From positions 144,550,744 through 144,614,743 of the forward strand of contig NC_058521.1 of NCBI RefSeq assembly GCF_904849725.1: 64,000 nt of DNA, given 5' to 3'. The translations under genes were made by a program, and so were the position numbers. Of the stretch, positions 4,282-62,886 are shown one piece after another; the stretch's first letter is position 1; each line of letters opens with the position of its first letter. This DNA comes from Hordeum vulgare subsp. vulgare (Eukaryota; Streptophyta; Magnoliopsida; Poales; Poaceae). The notes beneath the pieces are model-generated. The model was not told the origin of the DNA. It did not search any database and saw only the letters and a list, made by a program, of their open reading frames with translations.

Positions 4282-5890
4282 TGATACGTCTCAAACGTAT
4301 CTATAATTTTTGATGGTTTCATGCTGTTATCTTGTCAACTTTGGATATTTTATATACCTTTTATATATTTTTTGGGACTAACTTATTAATTCAGTGCCAA
4401 GTGTCAGTTCCTGTTTTTCTGTGTTTTTGACTCTTTTCAGATCTGATTTTGGAATGGAGTCCAAACGGAATAAAATCCCCGAAATAAATTTTTCCTGAAC
4501 AGAAGAAGATCGGGGGGCTTGAGGGCCAAGGCAGGGGCCCCACAGTGACCCCACAAGCCCTGTTGGCGCGGCCAAGGGGGCCCGCAGCAACCAGGCTTGT
4601 GGCCTCCCTGGAGCTCCCCTGCCCTAGCTCTTTTTGCCTATAAATTCCCTAAAATCGCAGAAAAAATCATGGCATCCACGGAAAACACTTTTCCGCCGTC
4701 GCAAGCTTCCGTTTCCGTGAGATCTCATCTGGAGACCCTTCCCGGTGCCCTGCCGGAGGGGACTTCGGAGTTGGAGGGATTCTACATCAACATCATCGCC
4801 TCTCCAATGACTCGTAAGTAGTCCACTTCCGACCTACGGGTCCGTAGTTAGTAGCTAGATGGCTTCTTCTCTCTCTTTGATCTTCAATACAAAGTTCTCC
4901 ATCATCTTCATGGAGATCTATCCGATGTAATCCTCTTTGGCAGTGTGTTTCTCGAGATCCGATGAATTGTGGACTTGTGATCAGATTATCTATGAATTAT
5001 ATTTGAGTCTTTGCTGATTTCTTATATGCATGATTTGATATCCTTGTAAGTCTCTCCGAGTCTTGGGTTTTGTTTGGCAAACTAGATCTATGATTCTTGC
5101 AATGGGAGAAGTGCTTGGTTTTGGGTTCATACCGTGCGGTGACCTTTCCCAGTGACAGAAGGGGCAGCAAGGCACACATCGTGTTGTTGCCATCAAGGGT
5201 AACAAGATGGGCTTTCATCATAAATTTGAGATTGTTCATCTACATCATGTCATCTTGCTTAAGGCGTTACTCTGTTCTTTTGGACTTAATACACTAGATC
5301 CATGCTGGATAGCGGTCGACATGTGGAGTAATAGTAGTAGATGCAGGAAGTATCGATCTACTTGTTTTGGACGTGATGCCTATAGATATAATCATTGCCA
5401 TAGATAACGTCACGACTTTGCGCGGTTCTATCAATTGCTCGTCAGTAATTCGTTCACCCACCGTCTACTTGCTTTCATGAGAGAAGCCACTAGTGAACAC
5501 TACGGCCCCCGGGTCTATTCACAACTATCGTTTCCACTTTCACTTTTACTTTGCTTGGTTTACTTCTTGCTTTTAGTTCTCACTTTGCAAAAAATCTATA
5601 AGGGATTGACAACCCCTTCGTAGCGTTGGGTGCAAGCTCTTTGTGTTTGTGCAGGTACTTGTGACTTGACGCGATCCTCCCACTGGATCGATACCTTGGT
5701 TCTCAAACTGAGGGAAATACTAACCACCGCTGTGCTACATCACCCTTTCCTCTTCAAGGGAACACCAACGCAAGGCTCCAAGGCCACGGGGAAATCCTTG
5801 CATATTTGCCAAGGAAGTCCCTATAGGCGTAGCCCGTAGGAGCAGGATTACTGGCGCCGTTGTTAGGGAAGGTCTGTTGTCACAGTAGCA
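4282..5890 (+). repeat. ATH1 5' LTR (1609 bp)
   Basis: Begins TGATACGTCTC and ends CAGTAGCA, with the start and end confirmed by the copy at 9573-11105/24309-24379. It contains a TATA box (TATAAAT, 4639-4645) in a GC-rich stretch, the likely promoter of the element. A PBS-like sequence, tggcgccgttgttaggga, lies inside the LTR at 5852-5869, 21 bases before its end, in addition to the real PBS downstream. Confidence 0.93.
4639..4645 (+). promoter_or_regulatory. TATA box in ATH1 5' LTR
   Basis: TATAAAT, repeated in the 3' LTR copy near 9926. It lies about 360 bases into the LTR, as expected for a U3/R boundary. Confidence 0.6.
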
Positions 5891-9572: not shown

Positions 9573-11105
9573 TGATACGCCTCAAACGTATCTATAATTT
9601 TTGATGGTTTCATGATGTTATCTTGTCAACTTTGGATGTTTTAAATACCTTTTATATCTTTTTTGGGACTAACTTATTAATTCAGTGCCAAGTGCGAGTT
9701 CTTGTTTTTGTGTGTTTTTGACTCTTTTCAGATCTGATTTTGGAATGGAGTCCAAACGGAATAAAATCCCCGAAATAAAGTTTTCAAGAACAGAAGAAGA
9801 TCGGGGGGCTTGAGGGCCAAGGCAGGGGCCCACAGGGAGCCCACAAGCGCTGTTGCCGCGGCCAGGGGGCGCGGTAACCAGGCTTGTGGCCTCCCTGGCG
9901 CTCCCCTGCCGTAGCTCTTAGGGCTATAAATTCCCTAAAATCGCAGAAAAAATCAGGGCATCCACGAAAACACTTTTCCGCCGCCGCAAGCTTCCGTTTT
10001 CGCGAGATCTCATCTGGAGACCCTTCCCGGTGCCCTGCCGGAGGGGACTTTGGAGTTGGAGGGCTTATACATCAACATCATCGCCTCTCCAATGACTCGT
10101 GAGTAGTTCACTTCAGACCTATGGGTCCGTAGTTAGTAGCTAGATGGCTTCTTCTCTCTCTTGGATCTTCAATACAAAGTTCTCCATGATCTTCATGTAG
10201 ATCTATCCGATGTAATCCTCTTTGGCGGTGTGTTTGTCGAGATCCGATGAATTGTGGATTTGTGATCAGATTATCTATGAATTATATTTGAGTCTTTGCT
10301 GATTTCTTTTATGCATGATTTGATATCCTTGTAAGTCTCTCCGAGTCTTGGGTTTTGTTTGGCCAACTAGATCTACGATTCGTGCAATGGGAGAAGTGCT
10401 TGGTTTTGGGTTCATACCGTGTGGTGACCTTTCCCAGTGACAGAAGGGGGAGCAAGGCACGTATCATGTTGTTGCCAGCAAGGGTAACAAGATGGGCTTT
10501 CATCATAAATTTGAGATTGTTCATCTACATCATGTCATATTTCTTAAGGCGTTACTCTGTTCTTTTGGACTTAATACACTAGATGCATGCTGGATAGCGG
10601 TTGACGTGTAGAGTAATAGTAGTAGATGCAGAAAGTATCGGTCTACTTGTTTTGGACGTGATGCCTATAGATATAATCATTGCCATAGATAACGTCATGG
10701 CTTTGCGCGGTTCTATCAATTGCTCGACAATAATTGGTTCACCCACCGTCTACTTGCTTTCATGAGAGAAGCCACTAGTGAACACTACGGCACCCGGGTC
10801 TATTCACAACTATCGTTTCCACTTTCACTTTTACTTTGCTTGGTTTACTTCTTGCTTTCAGTTCTCACTTTGCAAACAATCTATAAGGGATTGACAACCC
10901 CTTCATAATGTTGGGTGCAAGCTCTTTGTGTTTGTGCAGATACTTGTGACTTGACGCGATCCTCCCACTGGATCGATACCTCGGTTCTCAAACTGAGGGA
11001 AATACTTACCGCCGCTGTGCTACATCACCCTTTCCTCTTCAAGGGAACACCAACGCAAGGCTCCAAGGCTGCCGGGAAATCCTTTGCATATTTGCCAAGG
11101 AGGTC
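9573..11105 (+). repeat. ATH1 3' LTR, left part
   Basis: Begins TGATACGCCTC and is collinear with 4282-5815. It is cut by TAT1 at 11105. The last five bases, aggtc (11101-11105), are one copy of the TAT1 target duplication. Confidence 0.93.
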
Positions 11106-11594
11106 TGTCGTGGTTTTGTCACAGCAGATGTGCTCGTGAAAGGACTTAGTATTGGAGCCATCGCACTTTGTGGCGACTCAAAGGTGTTGAACGGGAGTGA
11201 GATGGAGATTTACCCAGGTTCGACCCCTCGTGAGGAGGTAAAGGCCTACGTCCTGCTTTGAGTTGTATTGATGGAGTTTCAATTACAAGGAGGGCGTAAC
11301 TCGCCAGACCTAGTACTCGATGATTTCTAACCTGCCCTCTTCTTCCCTAGGGCTCGCCTTTATATACAGGTCGAGTTCCTAGGGTTTAAAAGGGTACTTT
11401 CCTTTCTACAAACCATGATTCTTACGATCTCTAAGTCGCCATCTTTCCAAAGCTTGGAAACCTTTTGGAAGTTGTGAACCGCCATACAACCTTTGGTCTT
11501 GCCAGGCCAAGGTCCGAACCATGCTTATATGAATCGCCAGATTTGGTGACCCGGCCCAACTAGGGCGGGTTATCAATAGATAATATCCCCAACA
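11106..11594 (-). repeat. TAT1 3' LTR (489 bp)
   Basis: On the plus strand it starts tgtcgtgg and ends ccccaaca, which is TG...CA for the minus-strand element. It aligns end to end with 23814-24303 (490 bp). By eye about 11 differences fall in the first 160 bases. The minus-strand TATA box reads TATATAAAGG (plus-strand cctttatata at about 11356-11366). Confidence 0.95.
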
Positions 11595-12779
11595 TTAGGC
11601 CCCAGATTGACTTGAATTTTCTTCACGCCAATATCCTTACTCAATTAAGGGCGATTCATTTTTCATCCTCTTTTATACGCCATGAACTTAGCCCGCCATC
11701 TGTTGCGGAAAAACTTAAGTCGCCAGATCATTTCTCGCTGGTACCTTCTTATCCCTTGAATTCCGAAAAAGATAATGACGCAATCCCAACGGATCCTTCG
11801 GTATCGTTATCCCAAAATTTTCACAGCGCAATCATGGCGAATCTATATCTTTTGGTGGTTCCTGCTCGTGGTGCCTCGATTCCAGTGTCTGCCCTGTTAA
11901 ATAGGTGGGGGGAGGACTGGCGCATTCCACCCACCAGTCTTGTCGCCCTTCTCCCCATTATCACACCGAAACCCTCATCGTCTTCCGTGAGCTCCGCCAC
12001 CAACCGCGGTTCTCGCCGTCGTCCGAAAGTTTTGGTGCCGCCCGAAGATCTTGTCGCCACCAAGCACTTCGCCGCGGCTGAGCAGTTCGCCGTTACCGAC
12101 CGTCTCCTTGTCGTTGAACACCTCGTCGTCGCCGAACACTTCGTCGCCGCCCGAGGTTTCCGCGCCCGTCCGAGGTTTTTGCGCCCGTCGGGAAGCCTTC
12201 GTCGCTGTCGACCATCTCCAGCCAAATCCACCAGGTTAGGTTTCCATTGTTCAAGAGCAGATCCCAATTTCCTTTCGAAGTTCATCACTGCCACATTACT
12301 TGGCACTTCCCGAATAGTTGTTACCTGTTTCTTATTAATCGATGGCCTCGATGACGAGAAAATCAATGTCTTTGATACTTTTACCTGTCCGCTCTTGATT
12401 TGCACACTTAGAGTAGGACTTCACCAAATCAACAGTAGTATCCCATCTTAGTCGAAGGTTGCCATATCCGGTCATTTCCACGTTTATTTTCGTATGTCCA
12501 GTAGATCCATAATCTACCGCTTTGTTATGCGAAAACTGTTTGTACTCTTCATACTTCGCCATTTTTTGGATAAATACCTCTGATGCCTTGAAACACCGCT
12601 CCCTTAAGTAGCCAAAGTTTCATAAGTCGCCCTAGCAACCTGACCAGGGCCTTCATTGGCGGATCAAAAAATTTCCTCAGCCAGCAGACAAATTACTTGG
12701 CGAGTCAAATGAAAACGTTTCACCTCTTACTGTAGATGTTTTGGCGTGTCAATTTACCCGTACTTTATCCCTTTGTAGC
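11595..12779 (+). other. Presumed upstream region of the TAT1 antisense gene
   Basis: Lies between the 3' LTR and the first exon. A frame is open from 11612 to 12451 on the plus strand, but it consists largely of degenerate gtcgcc/cacttcgcc repeats (12045-12200) and has no recognisable domain. I read it as leader or promoter. TGGATAAATACC at 12567-12578 is a possible TATA-type element about 200 bases before the ATG at 12780. The first bases next to the LTR on the minus strand (ctggggcctaa) would be the plus-strand primer site of TAT1. Confidence 0.4.
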
Positions 12780-15700
12780 ATGGGCGCCGTCTTCAAAAGT
12801 GACTGGCTCCCTACCAAGGTTAATGACGCCATACTAGCGGATTATGTGAAAACAGGAAATTTAGACCCTTAGGATGTTATCGGTTGGCGCACCGGGTTCG
12901 AAGAAGAAATCCCCAATCCCAAATAAGGGAAAATAGTTGTTTTCGTTGAACACCTTGAGCGAGGTATTAAGCCGCCTGGATCGAAGTTCCTTAGAGACGC
13001 CATGGCTTTCATGAATGTCCGCCTCCAAGATCTAGGGCCCAACTCGATCAGTAACCTATGCGAGTTCCAAGTGTTTTGTGAGGCTTATTTGCGGATGGAA
13101 CCCCCAATTCCCTTATTCTGGTACTTCTTCCACTTAAATCGCCAAACAGAATTTCACAATGGCCCCAGCCTGGAGCTCGGCGGTGTAAACGTTCAACGCC
13201 GCAGGGATAGCCCATCTCCGTCACTCGCCATGCCAAGCCACCCCAAAGGCTGGGGCGAGTCTTGGTTCTATTGTCAAGAGACCTCACCTGTGGGTGAAAA
13301 CAAACTTCTGGGTTATAGGGAAGATCGCCTTCCAACGAATTTCAAACTCCCAGACAAGCTCACCGAAGAGGAGGAGTCATATTTTATCCCAGTATTGTCC
13401 GAGTTAAGTTCTTTGACAAACAACGGCCTTACTGGAGTTGACTTGATCCGCTGCTGGGTCGAATGGCGAATCCTCCCTTTAAGTCGCCGAGACGGGTTAA
13501 TGTGTGAATTCGACGGCACTCTAGATCATCCTCAGTGCTACTTCCACACGGCTCTAACAGAAAATGACATTGTCACCATCATTAAGAAGCTGACCGGCGA
13601 GCCCGCAGGAAAATGCGGCCAAATGGGTCGCAAACCTTTCTGCAAGATTAACCCGACACCTAAGGTAAACAACTTTAACCCGCCTTTTGTCTTTTCCTTC
13701 TTATGTCTCATTCGAACTATGGCCTCTTATATACTATGCCATTTCAGAAAGGTGATAAATTTTGGTCCAAGAGGCCGAAGAAGTCAGCCATGAAGCAAGC
13801 TAGGCCGCCTCCAAAGAAGAAATCCAAGGGCAAGGGCAAAGCTGCTGTGACCGAACCATCCGAGGTCGATGAATCCCAAGTCGGCGACGCACCTTCGGAG
13901 GTGAAGACATATCCTCTCTTAACTCGCCATCCATTACTGATAACTTTTGTATTTATACCTCTGCATCTCTTGAATAGAATGAAGACAATGAAAGCCAAGA
14001 GGAGTTCGTAGAGGTAATTTCTGTTTCCTCTGATTCATCTTCTTCTCCACCTAAGCCGGCCAGGCGAATTTGTGGGAAAGTTCCCTTCTCACACCCAAAT
14101 GCTTGTTTGGACCCAAATTTTTTTCTGAATAAAGCACAACACACTTCAAATCGGAAGACCCGAAGTCATTCCGGCGATCTGGTGTCCGGTTTACCAACAA
14201 GGAACAAGAAAAGGCCAAATGAGGTATCCTTTAATGACACTTTTTTCTGTCTTTTTGGATCGTATTTGTAACCTGCTTATATCTTCAAAGTACAATTCTT
14301 GTAGAGTTCTCCTCCTACATCTGGCGACTCAGTAATGTCAGCACTTCCGCCAATGATCCGTGTCCCTGGGTAAGTCTTTGATAATATTTACTTTTAATCT
14401 GATGGTGATAAATTTTCAGTCCTTTAACCGCACCCCCTTCTCCTTTCAAGGCACATGCGAAGAAAAGAAAAACTGGTGGGTCAACTCCCATCATAATCTC
14501 GGAGCCTACCGAAAAGTCGGCGCCGATCCAAGATAAGCCGGACCAAGACAAACCTGAAGATCAAATGGATCTCCCTAGATCTCCCAATGAAACAATGGAT
14601 GCCCCCAAGCCGCCAAGTCCATTGACAACAGCGGAAGACCCGGAGGCTGTAATTATCACTGGTACTAGCTTCTCTAAACCGGCAACAGCGGTTTTATCGA
14701 AGCATGTATCATCATCATCTCAAACTGTTCCTGAGTATGAACTCTCCAAGGCTAAGCTCTCTCAATATGAACATCTAGAATTCAAAGAGCTTTTCTCTGG
14801 TTTTGCAAGTCACCTGGAGGCGAGTTATGAGATGGAGGAAAGCCTGCTTCGGATGCTGAAAAACAAACATGAGGTAAGCTTTGTTGTATACTATATTATC
14901 CCCATTAACCCCCAAGGTCCGGGTCATCAGTAAAAAGATGAGCCGGGTCTTGATGACTTAAATTTTTTTGACCAGTAACCCCCAAGGGCCGGGTTATCAG
15001 TAAAAAGATGAGCCGGGTCTTGATGACATGAAAAAATTTCGACCAGTAACCCCCAAGGGCTGGGTCATCAGTAAAAAGATGAGTCGGGTCTTGATGACTT
15101 GAAAAACTTTCGACCAGTAACCCCCAAGGGCCGGGTCATCAGTAAAAAGATGAGCCGGGTCTTGATGCTGTATAATTTTATCTGAAAAAATTATACATTA
15201 GCCCCCAAGTGTCAGCAATGTTGCTTGCAAAAGTTCTGAGACATGCCCCTTAACCATATGCCTCAACATGAATCTCTAAATCAGACTGAATCACCACTTG
15301 GCGACCTGAAGAAAAGCTTATCTGATCAGCAGGATGCCTGGGCCAAATTGGAGGAGAAGTATCAACTGGTCCTAGGTGAGATGGAAAAGCTAAAAGCCGA
15401 CTTAAAAAGGGCTCAAGCTGACCAAGATGTTTTAATAAAGCGAGCAGAAAAGGCTCAGGCCAAATTGGATACTGTACAACCAGAGCTGTCCGGCTTAAAA
15501 CGTCATATGTCAAACATGACGCAAGCCGTCTTTGGTAAATAACTAACTCTTGACCTTTGTAAACAAATAACTCTTATCTGAGTCGCTGATTATCATTACC
15601 CCTTAAACAGGTCCAAGAGCCGCCAACCTTCAGGATGATTGCGTCCTGACGCTGAAGGCGATTTACACGCTGATGGAGCAGCTATATACCGGCAGTGTAC

Positions 15701-16263
15701 TGACTGTGAAAACGGTGATGGGCGCCAAGGAGCCTGTAACATCAATAAAGAAGATGCTTGGCTGCCTATCCACGCTTCCTCCCCAGATTGGCGAGTTAAC
15801 TCGGTCAGCCGCCCGGAAAGGAGTGCTGACTACACTGAGTCGATGCTTAGCATATGCTCCAGAGATAAACCGAGAAGAAGTAGCGGCGGGCTTTCCTCAA
15901 CTCAGGGATGATGGGTCAGAATTCGCCGAAGAGGACTACCAGCGTGTTGTCAAGGACTCCCGTCTGGCGGCGACTCAGCTTGTTGCAAGCCTGGAGTTAC
16001 CAAAATACCAGGCCGCCTATGACAATAAGAACAAGAAGGTCAACCCGCCAACCTTTGTGACGACCAGCTTAACTCCGCGTCGACCCAAGAATCCTTTTGA
16101 CTTGGACGCGGATCTCTCATCAATCCTGACCGATGAGGATGAATTTGCCGCTCTATCCAAGTGTAACTGGGTATTGGGCGACTTGCAGATTGAGGTTGGC
16201 CAAAGCTCGCAGCAGGCTGATCAAGGGCATCAGCAGAATAAAATTTCATTGATTTGGCCATGA
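12780..16263 (+). pseudogene. TAT1 antisense spliced gene, 'putative gypsy type transposon' domain plus coiled coil
   Basis: Runs opposite to gag-pol. Seven exons chain with GT-AG introns and matching codon phases: 12780-13664, 13748-13900, 13978-14223, 14305-14369, 14420-14873, 15285-15534, 15611-16263. Exon 1 resembles the family known as putative gypsy type transposon (landmarks DLGPNSISNLCEFQVFCE, ESWFYCQ, GLTGVDLIRCW, LPLSRR). Exons 2-5 are rich in Lys, Pro and Ser (KKKSKGKGKAAV) and look disordered. Exon 6 is a Lys/Glu/Gln heptad-like coiled coil. Exon 7 is helical, ending at TGA 16261-16263. Damage visible: in-frame TAG 12870-12872 and TAA 12924-12926 in exon 1. The function is unknown; the exon model is my inference. 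The exon 5/6 acceptor (15284) is the least certain. Confidence 0.75.
14906..15180 (+). repeat. Tandem repeat in intron 5 of the TAT1 antisense gene
   Basis: Four copies starting at 14906, 14976, 15047 and 15118 (periods 70, 71, 71). Each contains gggtcatcagtaaaaagatg followed by agccgggtcttgatgac, so GTCATCA and TGATGAC form a perfect 7-bp inverted repeat around a ~21-base loop. Confidence 0.9.
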
Positions 16264-16608
16264 GAGCCATGTAATAGGTCTCCTTTTGGAATCGACACTG
16301 CTTTTGTGGCACCTTTAAAACATCCTTATGTCGCCCTTAAGGTGTTTTGAATGCTTGATCCGCCATTTGAGTTTTTTATCATAATACTTGACCCGCCATT
16401 GAGGCCTTTTTTATGATGCTTAATCCGCCATGGATAGAGTGATTTTGATCATCAACCTGTTCTCAGCTTGAAAAACATACATGAAATCATCTCAATGAAT
16501 AATAAGTGATAACAAATAGCAGTCGCCCCAAAATATTTTGAGACGAATCAGAAAAAAGTCTGAAAAACCTTGCGGCAGTGCTAGGAAGGTAAAAAATAAC
16601 AATTTCGT
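16264..16608. other. Spacer between antisense gene and 71-bp array
   Basis: No gene is supported. AT-rich, with short repeats of gatccgccat / gacccgccatt at 16358-16430. It may hold the 3' UTR of the antisense transcript. Confidence 0.4.
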
Positions 16609-17248
16609 CGGCTCATAAGGTCGCGACAGGATAGGGCGACTCAAAAAATCTCAAACGCCACCCAAAATAGTAATTTTGACGGCTCATAAGGTCGCGGCAG
16701 GATAGGGCGAGTCAAAAAAACTCAAGCACCACCCAAAATAGCAGTTTCGTCGGCTCATAAGGTCGCGACAGGATAGGGAGAGTCAAAAAAAGCTCAAGCG
16801 CCACCCAAAATAATGATTTCGTCAGCTCATAAGGTCGCGACAGCATAGGGCGAGTCAAACAAGCTCAAGCGCCACCCAAGATAATGATTTCGTCGGCTCA
16901 TAAGGTCGCGAACGGATAGGGCGAGTCAGACAAGCTCAAGCGCCACCCAAGATAATGAATTCGTCGGCTCATAAGCTCGCGACAGGATAGGGCGAGTCAA
17001 ACGAGCTCAAGCGCCACCCAAGATAATGATTTCGTCGGCTCATAAGGTCGTGACAGGATAGGGCGAGTCAAACGAGCTCAAGAGCCACCCAAGATAATGA
17101 TTCCGTCGGCTCATAAGGTCGCGACAGGATAGGGCGAGTCAAACAAGCTCAAGCGCCACCCAAGATAATGATTTCGTCGGCTCATAAGGTCCCGACAGGA
17201 TAGGGCGAGTCAAACAAGCTCAAGCGCCACCCAAGACAATAATTTCAT
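16609..17248. repeat. 71-bp tandem array in TAT1 (nine units)
   Basis: Units start (cggctca) at 16609, 16680, 16751, 16823, 16894, 16965, 17036, 17107 and 17178, so the period is 71 with one unit of 72. The core ggtcgcgacaggatagggcg includes the perfect palindrome gtcgcgac. Units are highly alike, pointing to recent expansion or homogenisation. The array lies just beyond the 3' end of pol and just beyond the 3' end of the antisense gene. Confidence 0.95.
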
Positions 17249-17367
17249 AGGCGAAATGGATAATAAAATTGATCTTAATGAGAGGAAGCCCCCAAGTCGG
17301 GAGGCGTTTTAATTTTATTGCTTTATAATAAGGACTGAAAAACTTACAAAATGCAGAGCTTAAAAGC

Positions 17368-18665
17368 TCAAGTGTAGTAAGGCCGCAAGTGGGCAATCTT
17401 CCAGGGGCGAGTCGACTCAGCCTCCGTGGTTGGCCGGTTAGGCCGGAGATCCACCAGATAGTAAGAGCAGTTGTGAAGATTTTTGCTGACGACGAACGGT
17501 CCTTCCCATGGTGGTGATAACTTATGCATGCCAGCACGATCCTGTATCAGCCGAAGCACTAAGTCGCCTTCCTGAAAGGTTCGGCTCTTGAGCCGGCGGT
17601 TGTGATAACGCCGTAAATCCTACTGATAAATGGCCGATCGGGCCGCAGCCAAGTCACGCGCCTCCTCTAAGGCGTCCAAAGAGTCTTGACGCGCCAGTTC
17701 GTTGTCCTGTTCCACATAAGCGGCGACTCTGGGCGAGTCATGCCTTATGTCAGTGGGAAGAACAGCTTCTGCTCCATAGACCAGAAAGAAAGGGGTAAAA
17801 CCTGTGGACCGGTTCGGGGTGGTCCGGATGCTCCATAACACCGAAGGCAACTCCTCCACCTAACATCCCGGGGTTTTTTCCAAGGGAACCATGAGCCGGG
17901 GCTTGATTCCCCGTAAAACTTCCTGATTCGCCCGTTCCGCCTGCCCATTAGATTGCGAGTGAGCGACCGCAGAAACATCAAGCCGGATATGCTCTCGACG
18001 GCAAAACTCCTGCATCGCCCCTTGAGACAGATTGGTGCCATTATCAGTAAAGATACTATGTGGATATCCGAACCGGAATATCAGCTTTTTCAAGAATTTG
18101 ACCGTCGTCTCCGCATCGCAAGTAACAACACGCTCTGCCTCAACCGACTTGGTGAACTTTTCAACCGCCACCAGCAAATGGGTTTTCTTGTTGGATGACA
18201 TTTTAAATGGGCCAACCATGTCTAACCCCCAGACCGCGACAGGCCAAGTGATGGCAATCATTCTTTGTTCTTGAGCCGGCACATGAGCTGTCATCCATAA
18301 CGCGCATCGATGAACTATCTCTTCTGCATCTGCATGAGCCGTCAACCAAAAGAAACCATGACGGAATGCCTTTGAAACCAAAGAGCGTGACCCGGCGTGA
18401 TGCCCACAATCTCCAGAATGAATGTCATTTAGGATTATGCATCCTTCTTTGGAGGAAACACATCGTTGAAAAACCCCCAGAGGCACTCCGCTTATATAAT
18501 TCTCCATTGATGATCACCATGGATTTGCTTCGCCGAACAATTTGGCTGGCCGAAACTTCGTCTGTTGGTAACTCACCCCGGGCGAGATAGGCCAGATAGG
18601 GAAGAACCCAATCCGGCGTGACGTGGAGAGCCGCCACGAATTGAGACTCAGGATCTGGTATCGCC
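17368..18665 (-). pseudogene. pol: TAT1 integrase
   Basis: Read on the minus strand. The N-terminal zinc region has IHSGDCGHH, but the second Cys pair is damaged (RCALW where CxxC is expected). Core domain: first catalytic Asp in GLDMVGPF, second in SIFTDNGTNL, and Glu in the NGQAERANQEV region. The C-terminal region carries YGAEAVLP and PPWEGPFVV and ends at 17368. The frame changes near 18450, and in-frame stops separate 18507-17860, 17859-17620 and 17559-17368. No chromodomain, as expected for Tat. Confidence 0.88.
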
Positions 18666-18676
18666 AACTCCTCCTC

Positions 18677-19215
18677 TTACGGCAAACTTACGGAGGGATT
18701 ATGCAAAATATCCAGAAAAACATTGGGGGGAACCGGCTTTCGCTGGGAACCAAGACGTGAAAGGGCGCTAGCTGCCTCGTTAAGGCGCCGGTCAATGTGA
18801 TCAACCTGATAGCCATGGAAATGACCCGCCACATCGGACACAGCTCTTCTGTAAGCCGCCATCACGGGGTCTTGAGAATCCCAAGTGCGTGAAACTTGCT
18901 GCGCCACCAGATCAGAATCGCCAAAACATCTGACCTGTGTAAGGTTCATCTCCTTGGCGAGTCGCAAGCCATGAAGCAAAGCTTCATATTTCGCAGCATT
19001 GTTAGTGCACGGAAACATGAGTCGGAGGACATAACATAATTTATCTCCTTGAGGGGACACCAGTACCACACCAGCCCTCGTGCCTTCCAGCTGTCTGGAT
19101 CCATCAAAATAAATAGTCCAGTATGTAAGATCAGGCCTGTCTTCCGGGGTCTGCAACTCCGTCCAATCATTGACGAAATCAACTAAAGCTTGAGATTTGA
19201 TGGCTGTGCGAGGGG
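18677..19215 (-). pseudogene. pol: TAT1 second RNase H domain
   Basis: A separate RNase H-like domain follows the standard RT-RNase H, a Tat-lineage feature. Landmarks: YFDGSRQLEGTRAG (first Asp), NNAAKYEALLHGL (Glu), CFGDSDLVAQQV (Asp) and DHIDRRLNEAASALSRLG near the end. In frame with RT but separated from it by a stop near 19216; a stop at 18674-18676 ends it. Confidence 0.88.
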
Positions 19216-19219: not shown

Positions 19220-20553
19220 TCATACGTGATGCGAGCCAAGTTCAATCGCCCACTTGGCAATCCGCCCTGTTGCCTCCCGATTCTGGATGATGTCCCCAAG
19301 GGGGGCGGAACTAACCACCGTGATGGGATGCTCTTGAAAATAATGCTTAAGGTTCCGACTCGCCATAAACACGCCATACACTAACTTCTGCCAATGTGGG
19401 TACCGTTGCTTGGAAACAGTTAGCACTTCGCTGACAAAATACACCGGGCGCTACACTGAGTATTCCTTCCCTTCCTCCTTCCTTTCAACGACCACCGCCA
19501 CACCTACTGCTTTAGAGTTTGCCGCAATATACAAAAGCATGGGTTCTTTCTCAGTCGGGGCGGCCAAGACCGGCGGGTTGACCAGTTGCCGTTTCAAGGC
19601 TTCGAAAGCTTCATCTGCTTCATCTGTCCAAACAAAATGGTCAGATTTCTTTAGTAATTGATAAAGGGGAATCGCCTTTTCTCCCAGGCGGCTTACGAAG
19701 CGACTTAAAGCCGCAATGCGACCCGCCATTCGTTGGACTTGGTTAACATTTGCCGGTTTTCCAAGGGACGTAACTGCTTCTATTTTGTCCGGGTTAGCTT
19801 CAATGCCACGCTCAGACACCAGGAAGCCCAACAATTTTCCTGCAGGAACACCAAAAACACACTTGGTGGGATTCAGCTTCATCTGATACACCCGCAGATT
19901 ATCGAAAGTTTCCTTGAGATCCTCCAGTAGCGTCTCCCCCTGGCGGGTTTTAATCACAATGTCATCGACATAGGCGTGGATGTTCCATCCGATTTGGCTG
20001 CGGAGGCATTTCTGGATGCAGCGCTGATAAGTAGCCCCTGCACTCTTGAGCCCAAACAACATGGACACATAGCAAAAAGCCCCACAGGGGGTTATAAAAG
20101 ATGTTTTCTCTTGATCCTCCACGGCCATCTTGATTTGGTGATATCCAGAGTAGGCGTCCAAAAAGTACAAACGTTCGCATCCCACCACCGAGTCAATAAT
20201 CTGGTCGATGCGGGGAAGAGCGAAAGGGTCTTTTGGACAAGCTCTGTTGACGTCCGTGTAATCAATGCACATACGGAAGGTACCATTCTTTTTGAGTACC
20301 AAGACCGGGTTAGCCAACCATTTGGGGTGGAAAACTTCTACGATGAATCCGGCGGCTAAGATACGGGCAACCTCTTCCCCGATTGCCTTGCGCCGTTCCT
20401 CGTTAAACCTGTGAAGATACTGCTGGATAGGTTTTGCCTTTGGGTCAACATTAAGATGGTGCTCAGCGAATTCTCTCGGCACACCAGGCATGTAAGAAGG
20501 TTACCATGTGAAGACTTCCCGATTCTCACGGATGAATTCGATGAGCGCGCTTT
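19220..20553 (-). pseudogene. pol: TAT1 reverse transcriptase and first RNase H
   Basis: Minus strand, same frame as the protease. Begins MPGVPREFAEHHLN. RT motifs: DYTDVNRACPKDPFALPRID, FLDAYSGYHQI, LFGLKSAGATYQ and the catalytic AYVDDIV. The RNase H part follows (LLYIAANSKAVG, QRYPHWQKLVYG). Stops occur at 20555-20557, in the EVFTW-PSY junction near 20502, and at 19448-19450. Otherwise the 346-codon RT block is open. Confidence 0.92.
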
Positions 20554-20554: not shown

Positions 20555-21690
20555 CTATTTGGGATCCAGACCCGTCCCAATGGTGAACTGCTTGGATGAA
20601 TCGCCAAGAGAGAAATCAACCGTTTTAGTGTCATCCGTTGGTTTGAACTTGAGGGGCGGCTCAGCATCTGTTGTTGTCTTGTTTAAGGGTGACATGTCAG
20701 CCGGATCAACATTTGCCCGATGATATTTGAGCTCCTCTGCAGCGCAGGCGACTTCCGCATAAGCCGCGTCCCCTTCTTCACATTCCTTTGCAATCCTTCT
20801 ATCACCATCAACAGTGATGGGTCCCTTAGGACCAGGCATCTTGAGTTTAAGGTAAACATAGCATCGGCGAGCCATGAACCGGGCGTAAGCCGGCCGCCCA
20901 AATAGCGCATGGTAGGGGCTTTTCAATTTGACCACCTCAAACATCAGCGACTCACTCCTGTAGTTATATGCTGTTCCAAATGCAACTGTGAGTTTGACTC
21001 GGCCTATGGGGTACGCCGACTTACCCGGGACGATTCCGTGGAATACCGTGGTTGAAGGCATCAAATCCTTTTCCAATAGGTTCATCCTTTGGAAAGTGTC
21101 AAAATATAAGATATTAATGTTGCTGCCACCATCCATTAGTACTTTCGACAGGGTGTACCCCCCAACTTGGGGAGCTACGACCAACGCTAAGTCGCCAGGA
21201 TTGTCAACTCTTGGCGGATGATCCTCCCTACTCCATGATATGGTCTGCTCGGACCAGTGGAGGTACCTGGGAAGTGCCAGCTCAGACACACTGTACGCCC
21301 GGTGACTCACCTTTTTATCACGCCTGCAAGCATTGGTGGTGAAAACGTGGTACTGCCCATTGCTTAACTGTTTGGGGTTGTTGCGAAAACCTCCGTTGTC
21401 ATCCTGGCCCTGTGATGCCCCTTGTGGAGGCGGTTGCTGAAAAACTCCGGGCGGGTTATACCACCGCTGGTGATGCACCGGATACTGGCCGCTGCTCGGC
21501 TGCGAGCCCCCCTGAGCCCCCGGCTCGGGAAAACCGCCAAAGGGGTTCTGACGTTGGTTGGGGGAAGCAAACTGCTCCTGCCGTTGGTCCGGGTCAGGGT
21601 TTTGCTCTTTTTTGATTGCCTCTGCCCGAAACTCCCGCATCACGTAATAGTTCTCCCAGGAATGAGTTGCCGGTCCGTCTGCCATGGCAT
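20555..21690 (-). pseudogene. pol: TAT1 protease region
   Basis: A 376-codon open frame. The catalytic motif is VLMDGGSNINILY (D-G-G form, usual in this lineage), followed by FHGIVPGKSAYPIG and HALFGRPAYARFMA. The N-terminal third is Gln/Pro/Gly rich and probably belongs to the end of gag. Ends at 20555 just before RT. Confidence 0.88.
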
Positions 21691-23725
21691 GGTGCGGGCA
21701 AGGGCCCTTGCATAGTTACGCGGCTTTTTACAACTGTATCCCCTGTTTTTTTCTGGCGTTGGTTGCCATTGTTGGTGTTGATATTGGCGACTAAATTCGA
21801 AGATTTCTCTTGCTGCCTTCTCTTGCCATTGGCTCCCTGATTGTGGCGGTTACGTCCCTGGAACCGGGTATGATTTTTGGATGACTCGCCCTTCCTTGGC
21901 GAGTTAGCTTTACCATCCTCACCGGGATCTTTGGTGTCGTCCGCTTCATCGTATCTAGTGAGGGTATCCATTAGCTCCCCCATGTCTTGGACCTTTCGCT
22001 TGAGTCGCCTCAACTTCTGCACCAGAGGTTCGTAGTGGCAATTCTGCTCGAGGTTCAACACCGCCTGAGCCGCCATAATACCGTCTGATGAATGAATAAT
22101 TTCCGTGACCCGCCGTGACCAATGGTGGGCCGACTCATCGGGGCGCTGAACGCAGTGCTGTAGATCGACAATCATCATTGGAAGTTTGCAGGTTCCTTGG
22201 AAGTTTTTGATGAAGCGCTCTTTCAAGTCAGCCCAGGTCTCGATGGAGTTGGGGGTAAGATTTTTAACCAAGTACGTGCTAACCCTTCGAGCATCATCGT
22301 GAAGTATCTGGCGCAAACTGCTTCGTTTACGTCGAGCATGTCCATGGCGATTTCATAACTCTCGACCCATGATGCCGGCTCAAGGTCCAGGGTGTAGTTA
22401 GTCACCTTTCTTGGTCCTTTAAAATCCTTGGGCATTCGTTCGTTGCAAAGGGCGGGGGCCAAGCACGGCACCCCCACTCGTCCACCGCTCCCGACGAGAG
22501 GGGCTGGGGCGACTTGGATGTTCGGGAGATCCCGGCCCGGCGGGTTTTGATGATCAGGCGGGTTGTCCTGGGGGATGAGTCGCGGTCCGCTGTTTACAGC
22601 GGGCTGGTCCTCTGGCCGACTCCTGGTGTGACTCGCCTGGGGAGTGGAATGCAGCCTATCTAGGCTATGTGAGAACTGGGCGTTTTGAACCACCGCCGTC
22701 TTTAACATCTCAATGGCGTTCCTTGCTTCTATCTCGGCAGGAGTATTGCCGTGAATCGGAAGAGATTCCAAAAGGCGAGTTGCAGCAAGGACGTTGTCCA
22801 CTGGGTTGGAAAAGTGAACCTGAGGTGTCCGGAATCGGGGAATGCGATCCTCAATTGGTTGAACCGGCGGGTTAGGTGGTTGGCCAGGTCCTCCCCCTGG
22901 GGCGGCTCCCACCCGGGAGTTCGCGGGGTATTGAACACGCGGGTCGGGTTGAGATCAGGGGGCACGCGACCCTAGTGCCTCCGCTGATGGACGGCGTCAG
23001 ATGCGCTGGTGTCTTTCGAGCCGCCAGTTGTCAGTATTTAAGCGAGTTCTCTCGGCGGTAATTTGAGCTTGCCGGGTCTCGATCCTGGCGGACTCCACCT
23101 CGGCATCCCGATGAGCCTTTGCCACTGCTTCTCTTAGTTTCTCCAATTCCGTGTTTACTGCCTCCTGGTTTTCCGGTGTGATTGGGGTCGCCATAAGCCT
23201 TGTAATTTCCGCTGCTAATTCCACCAAGACAGCGGTCGGGCTTCTAGATGTCTCGCCAGTTCCATCCCCGCCTGTCGGGTTTGGCGAGGGTTGAGTCACC
23301 CCAGCCATGTAAATGGCGATCTGGCGGCGGGTTCGGTCAAGGACTTCAGGGTCCATGGCCAGCGACAAGCCCCCAAGACAATCCCTATGTAGAGACCGGA
23401 TTGAATCTGAATCGCCAATGGACGATTCGTCGTCGGTGTTGATCGGTGTGGTTTCCTGGGTCGCTGAGTGTTCTGGTTCCTCCGATCCCTGCGTGAACCC
23501 AACAAATACCGGGCGAGTTAGATTTGATGTCATTACTGGACGGACGTACTTGGCCGGCTCGACGATGTCGGTGGAGATGTCCGGCTCAGGCATGGATGAT
23601 CCGATCATCCCGATGAAGACGTTGATCTTGCCGAAGGGGACCCTGTAACCAGATTCGATCGAATCCGCCTCAGGCCCCCATAGCAGGTTGTTGATGTAGT
23701 ACTTCCCACGGCGGCTCCGAGTCAT
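21691..23725 (-). pseudogene. gag: TAT1 gag
   Basis: Probable ATG at 23725 on the minus strand (MTRSRRGKYYINNLLW). The N-terminal half is disordered and charged, with a helical Glu/Arg stretch (AEITRLMATP to RLERHQRI). The gag core follows at about 22430-22060 (PKDFKGPRKVTNYTLDLEP, ARTWLK, FIKNFQGTCKLP). Two stops lie between 22997 and 22912, and one frameshift falls near 22280. No intact CCHC knuckle was found. Confidence 0.82.
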
Positions 23726-23811: not shown

Positions 23812-23813
23812 AC

Positions 23814-24303
23814 TGTCGTGGTTTTGTCACGGCAGATGTCCTCGTGAAAGGACTTAGTATTGGAGCCATCGCACTTTGGTGGTGACTCAATGGGGTTGAA
23901 TGGGAGTGAGACGGCGATTTACCCAGGTTCGGCCCCTCGTGAGGAGGTAAAGGCCTACATCCTGCTTTGAGTTGTATTGATGGAGTTTCAATTACAAGGA
24001 GGGTGTAACTCGCCAGACCTAGTACTCGATGATTTCTAACCTACCCTCTTCTTCCCTGGGGCTCGCCTTTATATACAGGTCGAGTCCCTAGGGTTTACAA
24101 GGGTACTTTCCTTTCTACAAACCGTGATTCTTACGATCTCTAAGTCGCCATCTTTCCAAAGCTTGGAAACCTTTCGGAAGTTGTAAACCGCCATACAACC
24201 TTCGGTCTTGCCAGGCCAAGGCCCGAACCATGCTTAGATGAATCGCCAGATTTGGTGACCCGGCCCAACTAGGGCGGGTTATCAATACATAATATCCCCA
24301 ACA
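23814..24303 (-). repeat. TAT1 5' LTR (490 bp)
   Basis: Right-hand copy of the TAT1 LTR, tgtcgtgg to ccccaaca on the plus strand. The minus-strand TATA box (plus-strand cctttatatacagg) is at 24066-24079. It drives gag-pol leftward. Confidence 0.95.
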
Positions 24304-24308
24304 AAGTC

Positions 24309-24379
24309 CCTATAGGCGTAGCCCGTAGCAGCAGGATTCCTGGCGCCGTTGTCAGGGAAGGTCTGTTGTCGCAGTAGCA
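24309..24379 (+). repeat. ATH1 3' LTR, right part (71 bp)
   Basis: Continues the LTR interrupted at 11105 (collinear with about 5819-5890) and ends in CA at 24379. It is followed by the ATH1 target duplication tcgac (24380-24384). Confidence 0.93.
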
Positions 24380-29539: not shown

Positions 29540-30091
29540 CATAGTTTCATCAAAACAAGCAACCAACTCAACAAAAACAGAATGTGTCAAAAATAGACCA
29601 GTCTGTAGCAATGTGTATACTTTGTATAGTTCTGGTACTTCAAAAAATCTGAAAAATTACGACGGCCTGGGGAAAAAGCATATCAATCAGCAGCAAAAAT
29701 AATCAACTCAAAATGCCTTTTTGAATAAAAATGAAAAATCATCTCGTGAGCGAAAAGTTTCTGTCTTTTTCCAGCAGGATCCCATAACCATTACCAAGAC
29801 TAGTCATAAAGGTTTTGCTTGGCTCAAACAGAAATAAAACACAAAAAACACAATCACAACAGAATTGTGAAAGTGTGGAGGCAACAAAACAGAAAGAAAA
29901 AGATAAATTCATTGTGTTGCCTCCCAACAAGCGCTATTGTTTAACGCCCTTAGCTAGGCATAGAAGCGATAGAATCACGTATCGTTGTCTTTGGTGCTCA
30001 AACCATAAGTGGCCCTCATCATGGATTCATAAGGCAATCTTATTTTCTTTCTAGGAAAATGTTCCATGCCCTTCCTTAAAGGAAATTGAAA
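29540..30091 (-). other. ATH2 tail (partial)
   Basis: Reverse complement of the ATH3 tail from about 44090 to 44580. Contains the conserved block described for 6917-6955, here at 29911-29949. No gene. Confidence 0.8.
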
Positions 30092-30480
30092 TCAAATATT
30101 CCCTTCCTTCTTACCGATGATAGCACCGATATTCCTTAGGAAAGGTCTACCAAGAATAATGGGGCATGTAGGATTGCAATCAATTTCAAGCACAATGAAA
30201 TCCACGGGTACATAGTTCCTATTTGCAATAATAAGAACATCATTGATCCTTCCCATGGGTTTCTTGACCGTAGAATCAGCAAGATGCAAATTAAAAGAAC
30301 ACTCTTCAATCTCATTCAAACCCAGAACATCACATAAAGACTTTGGAATCGCAGAAACACTATCACCCAAATCACACAAAGCATTGCACTCATAGTTTTT
30401 GATTTTGATTTTGATGGTAGGTTCCCACTCATCATGAAGCTTTCTAGGGATAGAGACTTCCAATTGATTATGGGGCTGTA
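30092..30480 (-). pseudogene. ATH2 aspartic protease
   Basis: Minus-strand frame of about 124 codons. The active-site region reads CDLGDSVSAIPKSLCD, where ATH3 has CDLGASVSSIPKSLCD, so the residue after D-L-G is Asp rather than Ala. It continues through LHLADSTVKKPMGRINDVLI and PIILGRPFLR, a typical Athila protease fold. Ends at 30092 by a stop; ATH3 reads about 30 codons further. Confidence 0.85.
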
Positions 30481-31826
30481 TATCCCTAGAATTGGATAGA
30501 GACTTGAAGTAGATTCATATACAACCCCATAATCATTAGGTTTGACACAAGAAAACAAAGATTCAATGGGAGTCACACCAAGCAATTTAAGATCTTCGTG
30601 ATTCTCATCACGGGAACACGCCTTTTTAAGCCATTCTTGTCTAGCACGATTATGGGCGGTTCTTTCTTGGCTCTCAATCATGGAAACACGCATAGCTTTC
30701 AAAGTTTCATCCATGTTGATTTTGGGAGGAGCACATATAACTTTCAAAGCATCAACATCACAAGAAATTCTATCCATGCTCTTAGCCAAATCATCAATTT
30801 TGAGTAGTTTTTCCTCTATGGACGCATTTAAAATCATTTGAGAGTTGATGAACTCTTTGATATTACTCTCTAGATCAGAGGGTAATCTATTGTAATTTCC
30901 ATGAGTATTGCTGTAGGAGTTGCCAAAGTTATTAGATGAGTTACTAGGAAAAGGCCTAGGAACATAGTTTCCTCTAAAGGCATTGTTCTTGCCAAAGTTA
31001 TTCCTACCAACAAAATTAACGTCCAAGCTAGCATTGCTACTCTCAATCAAAAAAGACAAAGGCATATCATTAGGATCCAAAGGAGCACTTCTACTAGCAA
31101 CCAAATTCATTAACTCGTCCATCTTAGCACTCAACGAGTTAATTTCTTCTATAGCGTGTACCTTCTTACTAGTAGGTGACCTTTCAGTGTGCCATTGAGA
31201 GTAGTTTGTCATGATGTTGTCTAAGAGCTTTGTGGCTTCCCCTAACGTGATTTCCATTAAAATTCCACCTAAGGCGGAGTCCAAGATATTTTTAGAAGCG
31301 AAATTAAGGCCAGCATAAAAGATTTGAATAATCATCCAAAGACTCAAGCCATGAGCGGGACAATTTCCAATCATTAATTTCATTCTCTCCCAAGCTTGTG
31401 CAACATGTTCATGATCAAGTTGCTTGAAATTCATGATATCATTACGGACAGAGATGATCTTAGCCGGGAGAAAATACTTAGATATATAAGCATCTTTGCA
31501 CTTATCCCAAGAATCGATACTATTTTTGGGCAAAGAAGAAAACCAAGTTTTTGCACGATCTCGCAACGAGAAAGGAAAAAGCTCAATTTAATAACTTCAT
31601 TATCCACACCTTTTTTCTTTTGCATATCGCAAAGCTCAATGAAGGTATTGAGATGGGATGCGGCATCTTCACTAGGAAGGCCAGAGAATTGCTCTTTCAT
31701 AACAAGATTCAGCAAAGCGGCATTGATTTCGTATGACTCCGCACTAGTGGTGGGAGCAACCGGAGTACTAATAAAATCATTATTATTAGTATTCGAGAAG
31801 TCACAAAGTTTGGTGTTTTCGTTCAT
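30481..31826 (-). pseudogene. gag: ATH2 gag
   Basis: The ATG at 31826 starts MNENTKLCDFSNTNNNDF. The retrotransposon gag core follows (RDRAKTWFSSLPKNSIDSWDKCKDAYISKY, NFKQLDHE, AGLN). One missing A near 31588 shifts the frame at the KLKLFPF site. Near 30490-30500 about 270 bases present in ATH3 (roughly 43390-43660) are missing, joining gag to protease out of frame. Confidence 0.9.
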
Positions 31827-32017
31827 GGTGACTTCAGCAAGCAAGAAAGCACACAAGCAAACAAAGAGCAGGCGAGAAAAAGGGCGAACAAAAAGGCGAA
31901 CGAAAAGGCAAATTGGTGAAGTGGGGAAGAGGAAAACGAGAGGCAACTGGCAAACAAAGTAAATGCAAGAGATGAGTTTGCGACACCTACTTGGATGAGT
32001 TGTTGACTTGATCTTCC

Positions 32018-32094
32018 TCCCCGGCAACGGCGCCAGAAATTGGAACGTTGACGGGAGACTATTCTTGACTTGATCTTCCCCGGCAACGGCGCCA
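32018..32094 (-). promoter_or_regulatory. ATH2 duplicated primer binding sites (tRNA-Asp)
   Basis: Two perfect copies of tggcgccgttgccgggga on the minus strand, at 32077-32094 (the normal place, 10 bases inside the LTR) and again at 32018-32035. Between them lies a piece resembling the LTR end (aattggaacgttgacggg). A third, degenerate copy is inside the LTR at 32112-32129. Confidence 0.85.
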
Positions 32095-32104
32095 GAAATT
32101 CTTC

Positions 32105-33648
32105 TGCTATCCCACAGACAACAGCGCCAAAAATTGACACGTTGCATAGGATGGGATTGCGTTGGTTTTTCCCTTCAAGAGGAAAGGGTGATGCAGCACA
32201 GGAGCAGTAAGTATTTCCGTCAGTTTGAGAACCAAGATATCGATCCAGAAGGAGGGTCTCGTCAAAACCAGAGTACCTGCGCAAACACAAACAAGCCTGC
32301 ACCCAACGCTTCGAAGGGGTTGTCAATCCCTTCAAGATTGTTTGAAAAGTGAGATCTGAAGGCGGAAAGTGCAACTAAGTAAAAAGTGTAAGGCTGAAGA
32401 TATGGTGTGGAGTAGACCCTTGGGGCCATAGTGTTCACTAGAGGGTTCTCTCAAAATAGCAAGTATCACGGTGGGTGAACAAATTATTGTGGAGCAATTG
32501 ATAGAACCAAGCAAAGTCATGACGATATGTAAGGAAATGATTATACATATAGGCATCACGTCCGAGACAAGTAGACCGATACTTTCTGCATCTACTACTA
32601 TTACTCCACACATCGACCGTTATCCAGCATGCATCTAGTGTATTGAGTTCATGACGAACAGAGTAACGCTTTAAGCAAGATGACATGATGTAGAGGGATA
32701 ATCTCAAACCAGTGATGAAAACCCCATCTTTTTACCCTTGATGGCAACAACATGATGCGTGCCTCGCTACCCCTTCTGTCACTGGGTGAGGTCACCGCAC
32801 GGTATGAACCCAAAATCAAGCACTTCTTCCATTGCAAGAATCATAGATGTAGTTGGATAAACAAAACCCACAACTCGAGGAGAATTGCAAGGATATGAAA
32901 TCATGCGTAAGAGAGATAAGAAGAAACTCAAATAAGATTCATAGATAATGTGATCATAAATCCAGAATTCATCGGATCTCGACAAACACACCGCAAAAGA
33001 AGATTACATCGGATAGATCTCCATGAAGATCATGGAGAACTTTGTATTGAAGATCCAAGAGAGAGAAGAAGCCATCTAGTTACTAGCTATGGACCCGTAG
33101 GTCTATGGTCAACTACTCACGCATCATCGGAGAGGTCATGGTGTTGATGAAGGAGCCCTCCGTATCTGAATCCCCCTCCGGCAGGGCACCAGGACGTGCC
33201 CAGATGGGATCTTGCGGAGACAGAAGCTTGCAGCGGCGGAAAAGTGATTGCGATGATCTCCTGATTTTTTCTGGAATTTATGGGAATATATAGGCGAAAG
33301 ACCTAGGGCAAAGGGCGTCTAGGGGGCCCACAAGCCTGGATGGCGTGCCCCCCTGGCCGTGGGGTGGAGGCTTGTGGGGCTCTTGGGGCTCCCCTGCCTT
33401 GGCTCCCAAGCTCCCCGATCTTCTTCCATTCCAAAAAAAATATTTTCGGGGATTTTCTTCCGTTTGGACACTGTTTCAAAATCTCCTCTGAAAGGGGTCA
33501 AAAACATGGAAAAAACTAGAACTGGCACTTGGCACTGAGTTAATAAGTTAGTCCCAAAAAATATATAAAAGGCATGGAAAACATCAAAAGTTTGACAAGA
33601 TAATAGAATGAAACCATAAAAAATTATAGATACGTTAGACACGTATCA
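32105..33648 (-). repeat. ATH2 5' LTR (1544 bp)
   Basis: The minus strand starts TGATACGTGTC at 33648 and ends at 32105. Length agrees with the ATH3 LTRs (1543-1545 without insertion). The minus-strand TATA region reads TATATATTCCC (about 33281-33291). Confidence 0.92.
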
Positions 33649-33789
33649 GCGGCCCACGCGGTGGGGCAGTGTGCTCGAAGCGCCGTTCGTTCTCCTAGGT
33701 CGCTTGCTGGGGACGAGCCGTGGTCTAGTTCTCGCAACAAGGAGGCCGGCCAGGGGCGATGTGGAGGCGCGGGGAGTCTCGGGACGGAG
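33649..33789. other. Unassigned GC-rich segment
   Basis: About 140 bases, GC rich, not matching any element in the window by eye and without an ORF I can interpret. It separates the ATH2 LTR from COP1. Confidence 0.3.
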
Positions 33790-34540
33790 CCTCGAGGCGG
33801 ATCTTATCGGTTGAACCTCTATGTCAAGGATTCACAATCCCGTATATCATTCTCTTTGTCCTTTGGTATGTTACTTGCCCGAGATTCGATCGTCGGTATC
33901 TACATACCTATTTCAATATCATTACCGACAAGTTTCTTTACTCGTTCCGTAATACAAGATCTCATGGATAACTCTTCAGTCACATTGCTTGCAAGGCTTG
34001 TTTGTGATGTTGTATTACCGAGTGGGCCCCGAGATACTTCTCCGTCACACGGAGTGACAAATCCCAGTCTTGATCCATGCTAACTCAACGGACACCTTCG
34101 AAGATACCTGTAGAGCACCTTTATATTCACCCAGTAACATTGCGACGTTTGATACACACAAGGCATTCCTCTAGTGTCTGGGAGTTACATGATCTCATGG
34201 TCATAGGAATTATACTTGACATGCAGAAAACAATAGGACCAAAATAACACGATCATATGCTACGTTTATAGTTTGGGTCCTATCCATCACCTCATTCTCC
34301 TGATGATGTGATCCTGTCAGCAAGTGACAACACTTGTCTATGGCTAGGAAACCTTAACCATCTTTGATCAACGAGCTAGTCAACTAGAGGCTCACTAGGG
34401 ACATTATTTTGTCTATATATCCATGCGTGCATTTATGTTTCCATTCAGTACAATTATAGCATGGCTAATAAACGCTTATCTTGAAATAGGAAATATAATA
34501 ATAACTATTTTATTATTGCCACTAGGGCATATTTCTAACA
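33790..34540 (-). repeat. COP1: truncated Copia LTR (BARE/WIS/Angela type)
   Basis: Corresponds to 40205-40962 of the solo LTR COP2, from about the motif cttatcg to the end. The minus-strand start reads TGTTAGAAATATGCCCTAG at 34540. It is truncated on its left. It abuts CH2 gag directly at 34541, so a Copia element probably inserted into CH2 and was later broken. Confidence 0.85.
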
Positions 34541-38400: not shown

Positions 38401-38447
38401 TAATGAGAGGTGCACACCATTTTGGGATCAAGGGCAAGCTAGCTCCT
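35401..38447 (+). pseudogene. pol: CH2 pol, first part: protease, RT, RNase H, most of integrase
   Basis: The protease active site reads LFDTRASHSF at about 35435: the catalytic-loop Gly is Arg (codon 35447-35449). [25 protein letters not shown] and intact YLDD (about 36397). RNase [14 protein letters not shown] and [12 protein letters not shown]. Integrase core: MDFVTGFPKSQ (first Asp), a damaged second-Asp region (SLDCVSLFTSKF where a D-R/C-G-S motif is expected), and IIEDMLRAC (Glu). An 11-base G run is at 37495-37505. Frequent stops and shifts. ATH3 interrupts at 38447 in the KGKLAP motif. Confidence 0.9.
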
Positions 38448-41807: not shown

Positions 41808-41817
41808 GAAGGATTTC

Positions 41818-41835
41818 TGGCGCCGTTGCCGGGGA
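41818..41835 (+). promoter_or_regulatory. ATH3 primer binding site (tRNA-Asp)
   Basis: tggcgccgttgccgggga, all 18 bases matching tRNA-Asp, 10 bases after the LTR end. Confidence 0.88.
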
Positions 41836-46804: not shown

Positions 46805-46819
46805 AAGCTTGGGGATGCT

Positions 46820-56830: not shown

Positions 56831-56931
56831 ACCGGAGTCTACAAACGCGGAAGAATTTTGGACCTGCAAAAAATTAGTCTGATTTGTATTACTTCAATGA
56901 TACTTGTTCTTTACATTGACTGCGTCGGCGG

Positions 56932-62884: not shown

Positions 62885-62886
62885 AC

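Follow-up and report, generated by a model that had tools for sequence, protein, structure and literature searches.

A decayed copy of a candidate seven-exon antisense gene in a Retand-like retrotransposon of barley

Antisense genes in Retand and other Tat-clade elements

Antisense open reading frames (ORFs) coding for TRP28 have already been described as typical of Retand retrotransposons. According to the available parts of Vicient 2025 (PMC11963269), antisense ORFs are present in all Retand clusters (TRP28-coding in 97%), their domains include TRP28, Smc, mitotic checkpoint, topoisomerase, and others, and similarity to TRP28 was found nowhere outside transposable elements. The ORFs of that survey were found with ORF Finder as single ORFs of at least 600 nt, and in the portions of its text at hand, outside the reference list, the words intron and exon/splice are absent (PMC11963269). 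A review excerpted here attributes its own promoter and a nuclear product to gene23 of the maize element Grande (PMC7264820), and the same review, by Vicient and Casacuberta (2020), calls for a search for antisense and spliced transcripts.

The locus described here lies in a window of 64,000 nucleotides of barley DNA (Hordeum vulgare subsp. vulgare, contig NC_058521.1, positions 144,550,744 to 144,614,743). It shares with the Retand antisense TRP28 ORFs, as outlined in the accessible text of PMC11963269, the position between pol and the 3' LTR, the antisense orientation, the PF04195 domain, tandem arrays, and the LTR and internal lengths, but differs from those single ORFs in that TRP28 here is the predicted first exon of a seven-exon gene. 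By description, it also resembles Grande gene23 (likewise an antisense accessory gene in the interval from pol to the 3' LTR; PMC7264820) and Silene Retand ORF4 (antisense, with a transposase 28 domain; cited in PMC7264820, as excerpted). Splicing within a Tat-clade element has a parallel in Ogre elements (cited in PMC6317226); the Ogre intron, as far as the excerpts of that paper go, falls between PROT and RT of the sense gag-pol transcript, in contrast to six introns in an antisense gene here. The call of Vicient and Casacuberta (2020) is thus answered at the level of sequence, with a TRP28 ORF that would be exon 1 of a spliced gene in Triticeae.

The element and the gene model in the window

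Self-BLASTN of the window delimited an element reading on the - strand (Table 1), with an LTR pair that is 95.3% identical. An additional RNase H-like domain (RVT_3) is placed between RT_RNaseH_2 and rve, all on the - strand, an arrangement that PMC6317226, in the part available to us, describes for Ogre and Retand elements. PF04195 lies in exon 1, antisense between pol and the 3' LTR. The LTR of ~490 bp, the internal region of 12218 bp, and the distance of 6265 bp from the end of the integrase ORF to the LTR all fall within the ranges listed for Retand in the available part of PMC11963269 (315-1194 bp, 7380-12869 bp, and 2933-6566 bp for POL-3'LTR). The additional RNase H alone is common to Ogre and Retand, whereas an antisense TRP28 exon favors Retand. 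From domain order, antisense TRP28 exon, and size ranges, the element appears to be a Retand-like member of the Tat clade of Ty3/gypsy. Its flanks (10801-11105 and 24298-24379) are continuous with each other on another repeat at 5516-5890, which indicates that the element is nested in another repeat and that its ends are well set; the copy at 5516-5890 shows the uninterrupted form of the sequence that the element splits. At a substitution rate of 1.3e-8 per site and year, the 4.7% LTR divergence would correspond to about 1.8 million years since insertion.

The original prediction had placed, in the interval that separates pol from the 3' LTR, a gene antisense to pol with seven open segments joined through GT-AG introns. 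Its placement agrees with RVT_1, RT_RNaseH_2, RVT_3, and rve on the - strand and with the LTR at 11105-11594. The six introns, with phases 0,0,0,2,0,1 and the frame kept at each junction, were reproduced exactly, including the two junctions that it named (13664/13748 and 15534/15611); with just two of six named, the starts of exons 5 and 6 were reconstructed from its phases. The joined model has seven exons, 2706 nt, and a stop at 16263, with an A+T content of 57-76% in introns versus 46-56% in exons. The motif TATAWA was not found between the LTR and the ATG (11595-12779), which proves nothing either way about a promoter.

The segments are not all open in the window copy. Exon 1 contains an in-frame TAG at 12870 and a TAA at 12924, and the chain is open for 2484 nt from the next in-frame ATG, at 13002. 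The three barley proteins P0001, P0003, and P0006 start exon 5 at 14451 rather than 14420, which would make intron 4 ~81 nt long, like its neighbors, and in the window copy an AG for the ~14451 acceptor is not in register. Several relatives, e.g., P0003, have exon 6 starting 15 nt upstream, at 15270, and P0006 agrees with the model (15285). With two stops and one acceptor out of register, no full-length protein would be expected from the window copy; the original prediction had overlooked this decay. P0127, a close relative with 87% identity over 293 residues, has an intact exon 1.

Table 1. Features of the Retand-like element and of the antisense gene model (positions in the window)
Feature	Position	Strand	Basis or remark
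3' LTR	11105..11594	- (element reads on - strand)	95.3% identical to 23813-24303
Exon 1, TRP28 (PF04195) exon	12780..13664	+	in-frame stops 12870, 12924 in window copy
Intron 1, 83 nt, phase 0	13665..13747	+	GT-AG; donor visible as Val in 40/41 short-contig/unplaced proteins with the exon-1 end motif
Exon 2, Lys/Pro-rich	13748..13900	+	model and alignment of relatives
Intron 2, 77 nt, phase 0	13901..13977	+	GT-AG model
Exon 3	13978..14223	+	model and alignment of relatives
Intron 3, 81 nt, phase 0	14224..14304	+	GT-AG; kept as 81 nt in 16/17 retaining proteins
Exon 4	14305..14369	+	model and alignment of relatives
Intron 4, 50 nt by the phases of the original prediction	14370..14419	+	relatives restart ~14451, would be ~81 nt
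Exon 5	14420..14873	+	first 31 nt without support from relatives
Tandem array, period 71, 3.8 copies	14902..15167	.	inside intron 5
Intron 5, 411 nt, phase 0	14874..15284	+	GT-AG; contains 71-bp tandem array
Exon 6, coiled coil	15285..15534	+	several relatives start at 15270
Intron 6, 76 nt, phase 1	15535..15610	+	GT-AG model and alignment
Exon 7, C-terminal helical part and stop	15611..16263	+	model, alignment, and structure of P0014
Tandem array, period 71, 9.1 copies	16602..17246	.	between convergent antisense gene and pol
Integrase ORF (rve)	17860..18507	-	domain match
Additional RNase H-like ORF (RVT_3)	18677..19156	-	domain match
Reverse transcriptase and RNase H ORF (RVT_1, RT_RNaseH_2)	19451..20491	-	domain match
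gag ORF piece (Retrotrans_gag)	21594..22316	-	domain match
5' LTR	23813..24303	-	BLASTN, window vs itself

As a chance control, dynamic programming was used to find the longest in-frame GT-AG chain (≤7 exons, introns of 50-420 nt) in stretches of the same length. Chains of at least 2484 nt were obtained in 15/109 other stretches of the window in a first sample and in 21/179 in a second (11/162 once stretches on the gag-pol strand of both elements were left out), while none of 40 mononucleotide shuffles of the region reached 2484 nt (longest, 1611). Since equally long chains occur in other stretches, frame-keeping GT-AG junctions by themselves are weak evidence. The exon chain alone is not beyond chance and is suggestive rather than proof; the strong evidence comes from the homologous proteins described below.

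Protein relatives and splice junctions

The joined translation matched 37 proteins, the profile matched 136 (of which 120 are listed), and a barley query matched 44. The best barley relative, from the same subfamily, had 78% identity over 64% of the query, and wheat and Aegilops relatives had ~36% identity over 95-98%. Annotated relatives are mostly gene predictions, many of them partial or fused; two wheat records, P0065 and P0068, are named as isoforms of "muscle M-line assembly protein unc-89" but are members of this retrotransposon gene family, and the name is misleading. Protein sequence is kept at 35-80% identity in the exons downstream of exon 1. Alignment rows from barley, wheat, Aegilops, and P0014 traverse the six junctions in register, with the qualification that many rows are partial, some skip exons, and not all span all junctions. 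P0014 is an 845-amino-acid ORF on a 4258-base contig in which all six introns are absent; the contig may be an intronless genomic copy.

Two protein sets were aligned back onto positions 11595-17800 by tblastn. In the first, of 13 divergent proteins, mean coverage was 0.93 for exon 1, 0.84 for exon 6, and 0.75 for exon 7 but was poor across the linker (0.00, 0.13, 0.38, and 0.28 for exons 2 to 5); introns 1, 2, 4, 5, and 6 were covered at 0.00-0.09 (intron 5, 0.01; intron 6, 0.04), and intron 3 was bridged as much as exon 4 (0.38 each). In the second set, of 12 barley proteins, coverage was 0.26-0.86 for exons and 0.02-0.18 for introns, except intron 3 at 0.50. Both flanks had a coverage of 0.00 with either set. 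All matches (45/45 divergent, 56/56 barley) were on the + strand, and neither set gave a match on the - strand of 11595-17800.

The borders of two introns are also visible in proteins read through them. A group of 48 proteins came from ena/jgi/lgn/src sources, most on contigs of 1-13 kb and four without a listed contig. Among the matches listed, these proteins end shortly past exon 1, and most consist of exon 1 alone (~300 amino acids). The motif at the end of exon 1 is present in 41 of the 48, and the next residue is Val in 40 of those 41 and Leu in one. By comparison, the motif occurs in 74 of the 112 other proteins, and in none of these 74 does Val follow; exon 2 or later-exon sequence follows instead. 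P0014, though on a short contig, was counted among the 112 and is the sole lgn protein spliced at junction 1. Among the matches listed, intron 1 is retained in four proteins (78-81 nt, Gln last) and intron 3 in 17 (81 nt in 16/17, Gln last in 16/17), compared with 83 and 81 nt for introns 1 and 3 in the window. Since GTN translates to Val and CAG to Gln, the borders of introns 1 and 3 can be seen in independent copies. Retention of intron 3 in frame with a conserved peptide in these 17 proteins (P0023-P0065) is either an exitron-like optional intron or a shared habit of prediction.

Because junctions and protein sequence are conserved among relatives, the TRP28 ORF is supported as the putative exon 1 of a conserved, spliced, protein-coding antisense gene in Triticeae. 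Going by sequence comparison, exon/intron structure, junctions, and protein sequence are common to the Triticeae relatives, and the window copy is decayed. The fully spliced gene with a consistent exon model that had been proposed from the window agrees with the conserved junctions of the relatives except at the acceptors of introns 4 and 5, past which several relatives start their exons elsewhere. It may be that antisense ORFs listed apart in Retand surveys are exons of one gene, and we infer that the other antisense domains of Vicient 2025 would be further exons of the TRP28 gene. Should TRP28 prove to be the opening exon of a single spliced gene, surveys based on ORFs would have been picking up pieces of it, and the complete protein could be defined, expressed, and tested.

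Predicted product, alternative readings, and a second element

The gypsy-type-transposon-like domain foreseen for the product was recovered in an HMM check as PF04195 (Transposase_28) at residues 53-120, with 56.1 bits against a cut-off of 26.2, and 24/39 members of alignment A4 also match PF04195 at E ≤0.01. A disordered part and a coiled coil had been foreseen as well, in line with the predicted structure of P0014, a relative, which has a low-confidence middle and a long helix. In that full-length model (mean pLDDT, 47), residues 277-497 have low confidence, and this middle region is probably disordered; the helix extends over residues 506-634, with block means of pLDDT of 83-90 across most of 521-600. 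The coiled-coil part gave weak Pfam matches of coiled-coil kind (Rootletin, Filament, and others) in 1-2/39 members each. The TRP28 exon model has a mean pLDDT of 70, and a structure search with it gave no match at E below 0.001. A K[KR]x[KR] motif, which we take to be nuclear-signal-like, is found ≤25 residues past junction 4 in 26/29 rows, the window model included, and is suggestive of a nuclear product. As a proxy for selection in place of dN/dS, the mean BLOSUM62 score at differences was compared with a neutral simulation on the window codons. Differences from relatives were more conservative than simulated in 22/22 comparisons (z of 1.4-5.0); these are non-independent, all sharing the window copy, and alignment favors conservative pairs, which makes the result support rather than a dN/dS.

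We consider it likely that the locus represents a conserved seven-exon accessory gene, decayed in this copy, which a Retand-like Ty3 element carries in antisense orientation in the interval from pol to the 3' LTR. Pol II would transcribe the antisense gene from the integrated copy, towards pol. Retention of the introns would follow from replication of the element through RNA of the opposite strand, where these splice signals do not exist; with genomic RNA lacking them, protein would come only from a spliced nuclear antisense transcript. Introns kept in this way, on the strand opposite to the genomic RNA, would mirror in nature the antisense introns built into retrotransposition reporters. The predicted product combines a TRP28 domain, a basic linker, a long coiled coil, and a helical C-terminal part. 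With less certainty, the nuclear protein might dimerize through the coiled coil and act on nucleic acid or chromatin, regulating the element's own expression or integration. For the product, we infer foremost a nuclear regulator; the role of "regulator or chromatin factor" that was first proposed is plausible.

That the seven-exon chain is one of the frame-keeping GT-AG chains common in non-coding DNA would suit the equally long chains in other window stretches and the two stops in exon 1, but it is already contradicted by homologous proteins, which are independent, match the exons in order on one strand, and resume at the junctions, and by Val at the predicted donor in 40/41 of the unspliced ORFs among the matches listed; we regard it as extremely improbable. 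It is improbable, too, that the gene is real but the splicing of relatives is a gene-finder artefact, the working product being the TRP28 exon only, with a few codons past the donor and then a stop. The many short-source proteins that are exon 1 alone, ~300 amino acids long among the matches listed, and the single ORFs (≥600 nt) in the accessible text of Vicient 2025 (PMC11963269) would agree with such a product; however, conservation of downstream exons at 35-80% identity is unexpected for an unused tail, P0014 is spliced throughout, and retained introns start with Val and nearly always end with Gln. A similarly low probability is given to the antisense RNA itself as the functional output, through double-stranded RNA or interference with genomic RNA, with the protein secondary. 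This was named as a possibility by Vicient and Casacuberta (2020) in the excerpts of PMC7264820, and the gene converges on pol, with a candidate AATAAA (17262) reached shortly before pol; the conservative replacements in all 22 comparisons and the common splice sites point instead to a selected protein.

Other readings keep the spliced protein and change its role or origin. Its role might lie in integration, or in bringing the pre-integration complex into the nucleus, rather than in regulation, as the basic linker and the K[KR]x[KR] motif would allow and as the excerpted PMC7264820 proposes for such ORFs; we view this as somewhat unlikely. Capture of a host gene with its introns is quite doubtful: introns in an antisense-strand retrotransposon gene fit capture from genomic DNA, and some RefSeq loci of wheat and Aegilops in the family have multiple isoforms (P0037, P0063-P0068), but the same architecture occurs in divergent families and recurs, degraded, in another element of the window, and Vicient 2025, in its available parts, finds TRP28 similarity nowhere outside transposable elements (PMC11963269). 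The preferred reading, of a spliced nuclear regulator, can be extended to grass Retand elements at large. These would keep an intron-rich antisense gene, with expression tied to the integrated nuclear copy, as their own spliced nuclear regulator; the 81-nt in-frame intron 3 of many wheat relatives would switch between two isoforms, and TRP28, Smc-like, and other ORFs would be its exons lineage-wide. We hold this extension only tentatively and think it unlikely in full.

A second element of the window (50258-63418) has terminal repeats at 50258-50789 and 62886-63418 and RT and integrase on the - strand. The A4 profile found a broken TRP28 exon on its + strand at 51384-52245 (E of 1e-10 and 7e-10), followed downstream by weak collinear coiled-coil and C-terminal matches that are within control noise. 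Its features are those of a Retand-like element with a putative degraded antisense TRP28 exon. Tandem repeats at 53538-53882 precede its coiled-coil piece, paralleling the array in intron 5. A third tandem array, at 55812-56817 in the second element, also has a 71-bp period, and the three 71-bp-period arrays have no mutual sequence similarity clearly above shuffles. Both elements have an array placed between pol and the antisense gene that converges on it (16602-17246 and 55048-56817); as an idea only, these arrays might stop antisense transcription before pol. Elsewhere in the window, several long inverted and direct repeats within 29540-48362, e.g., 30649-31583 versus 42314-43248 (93%), point to further nested elements.
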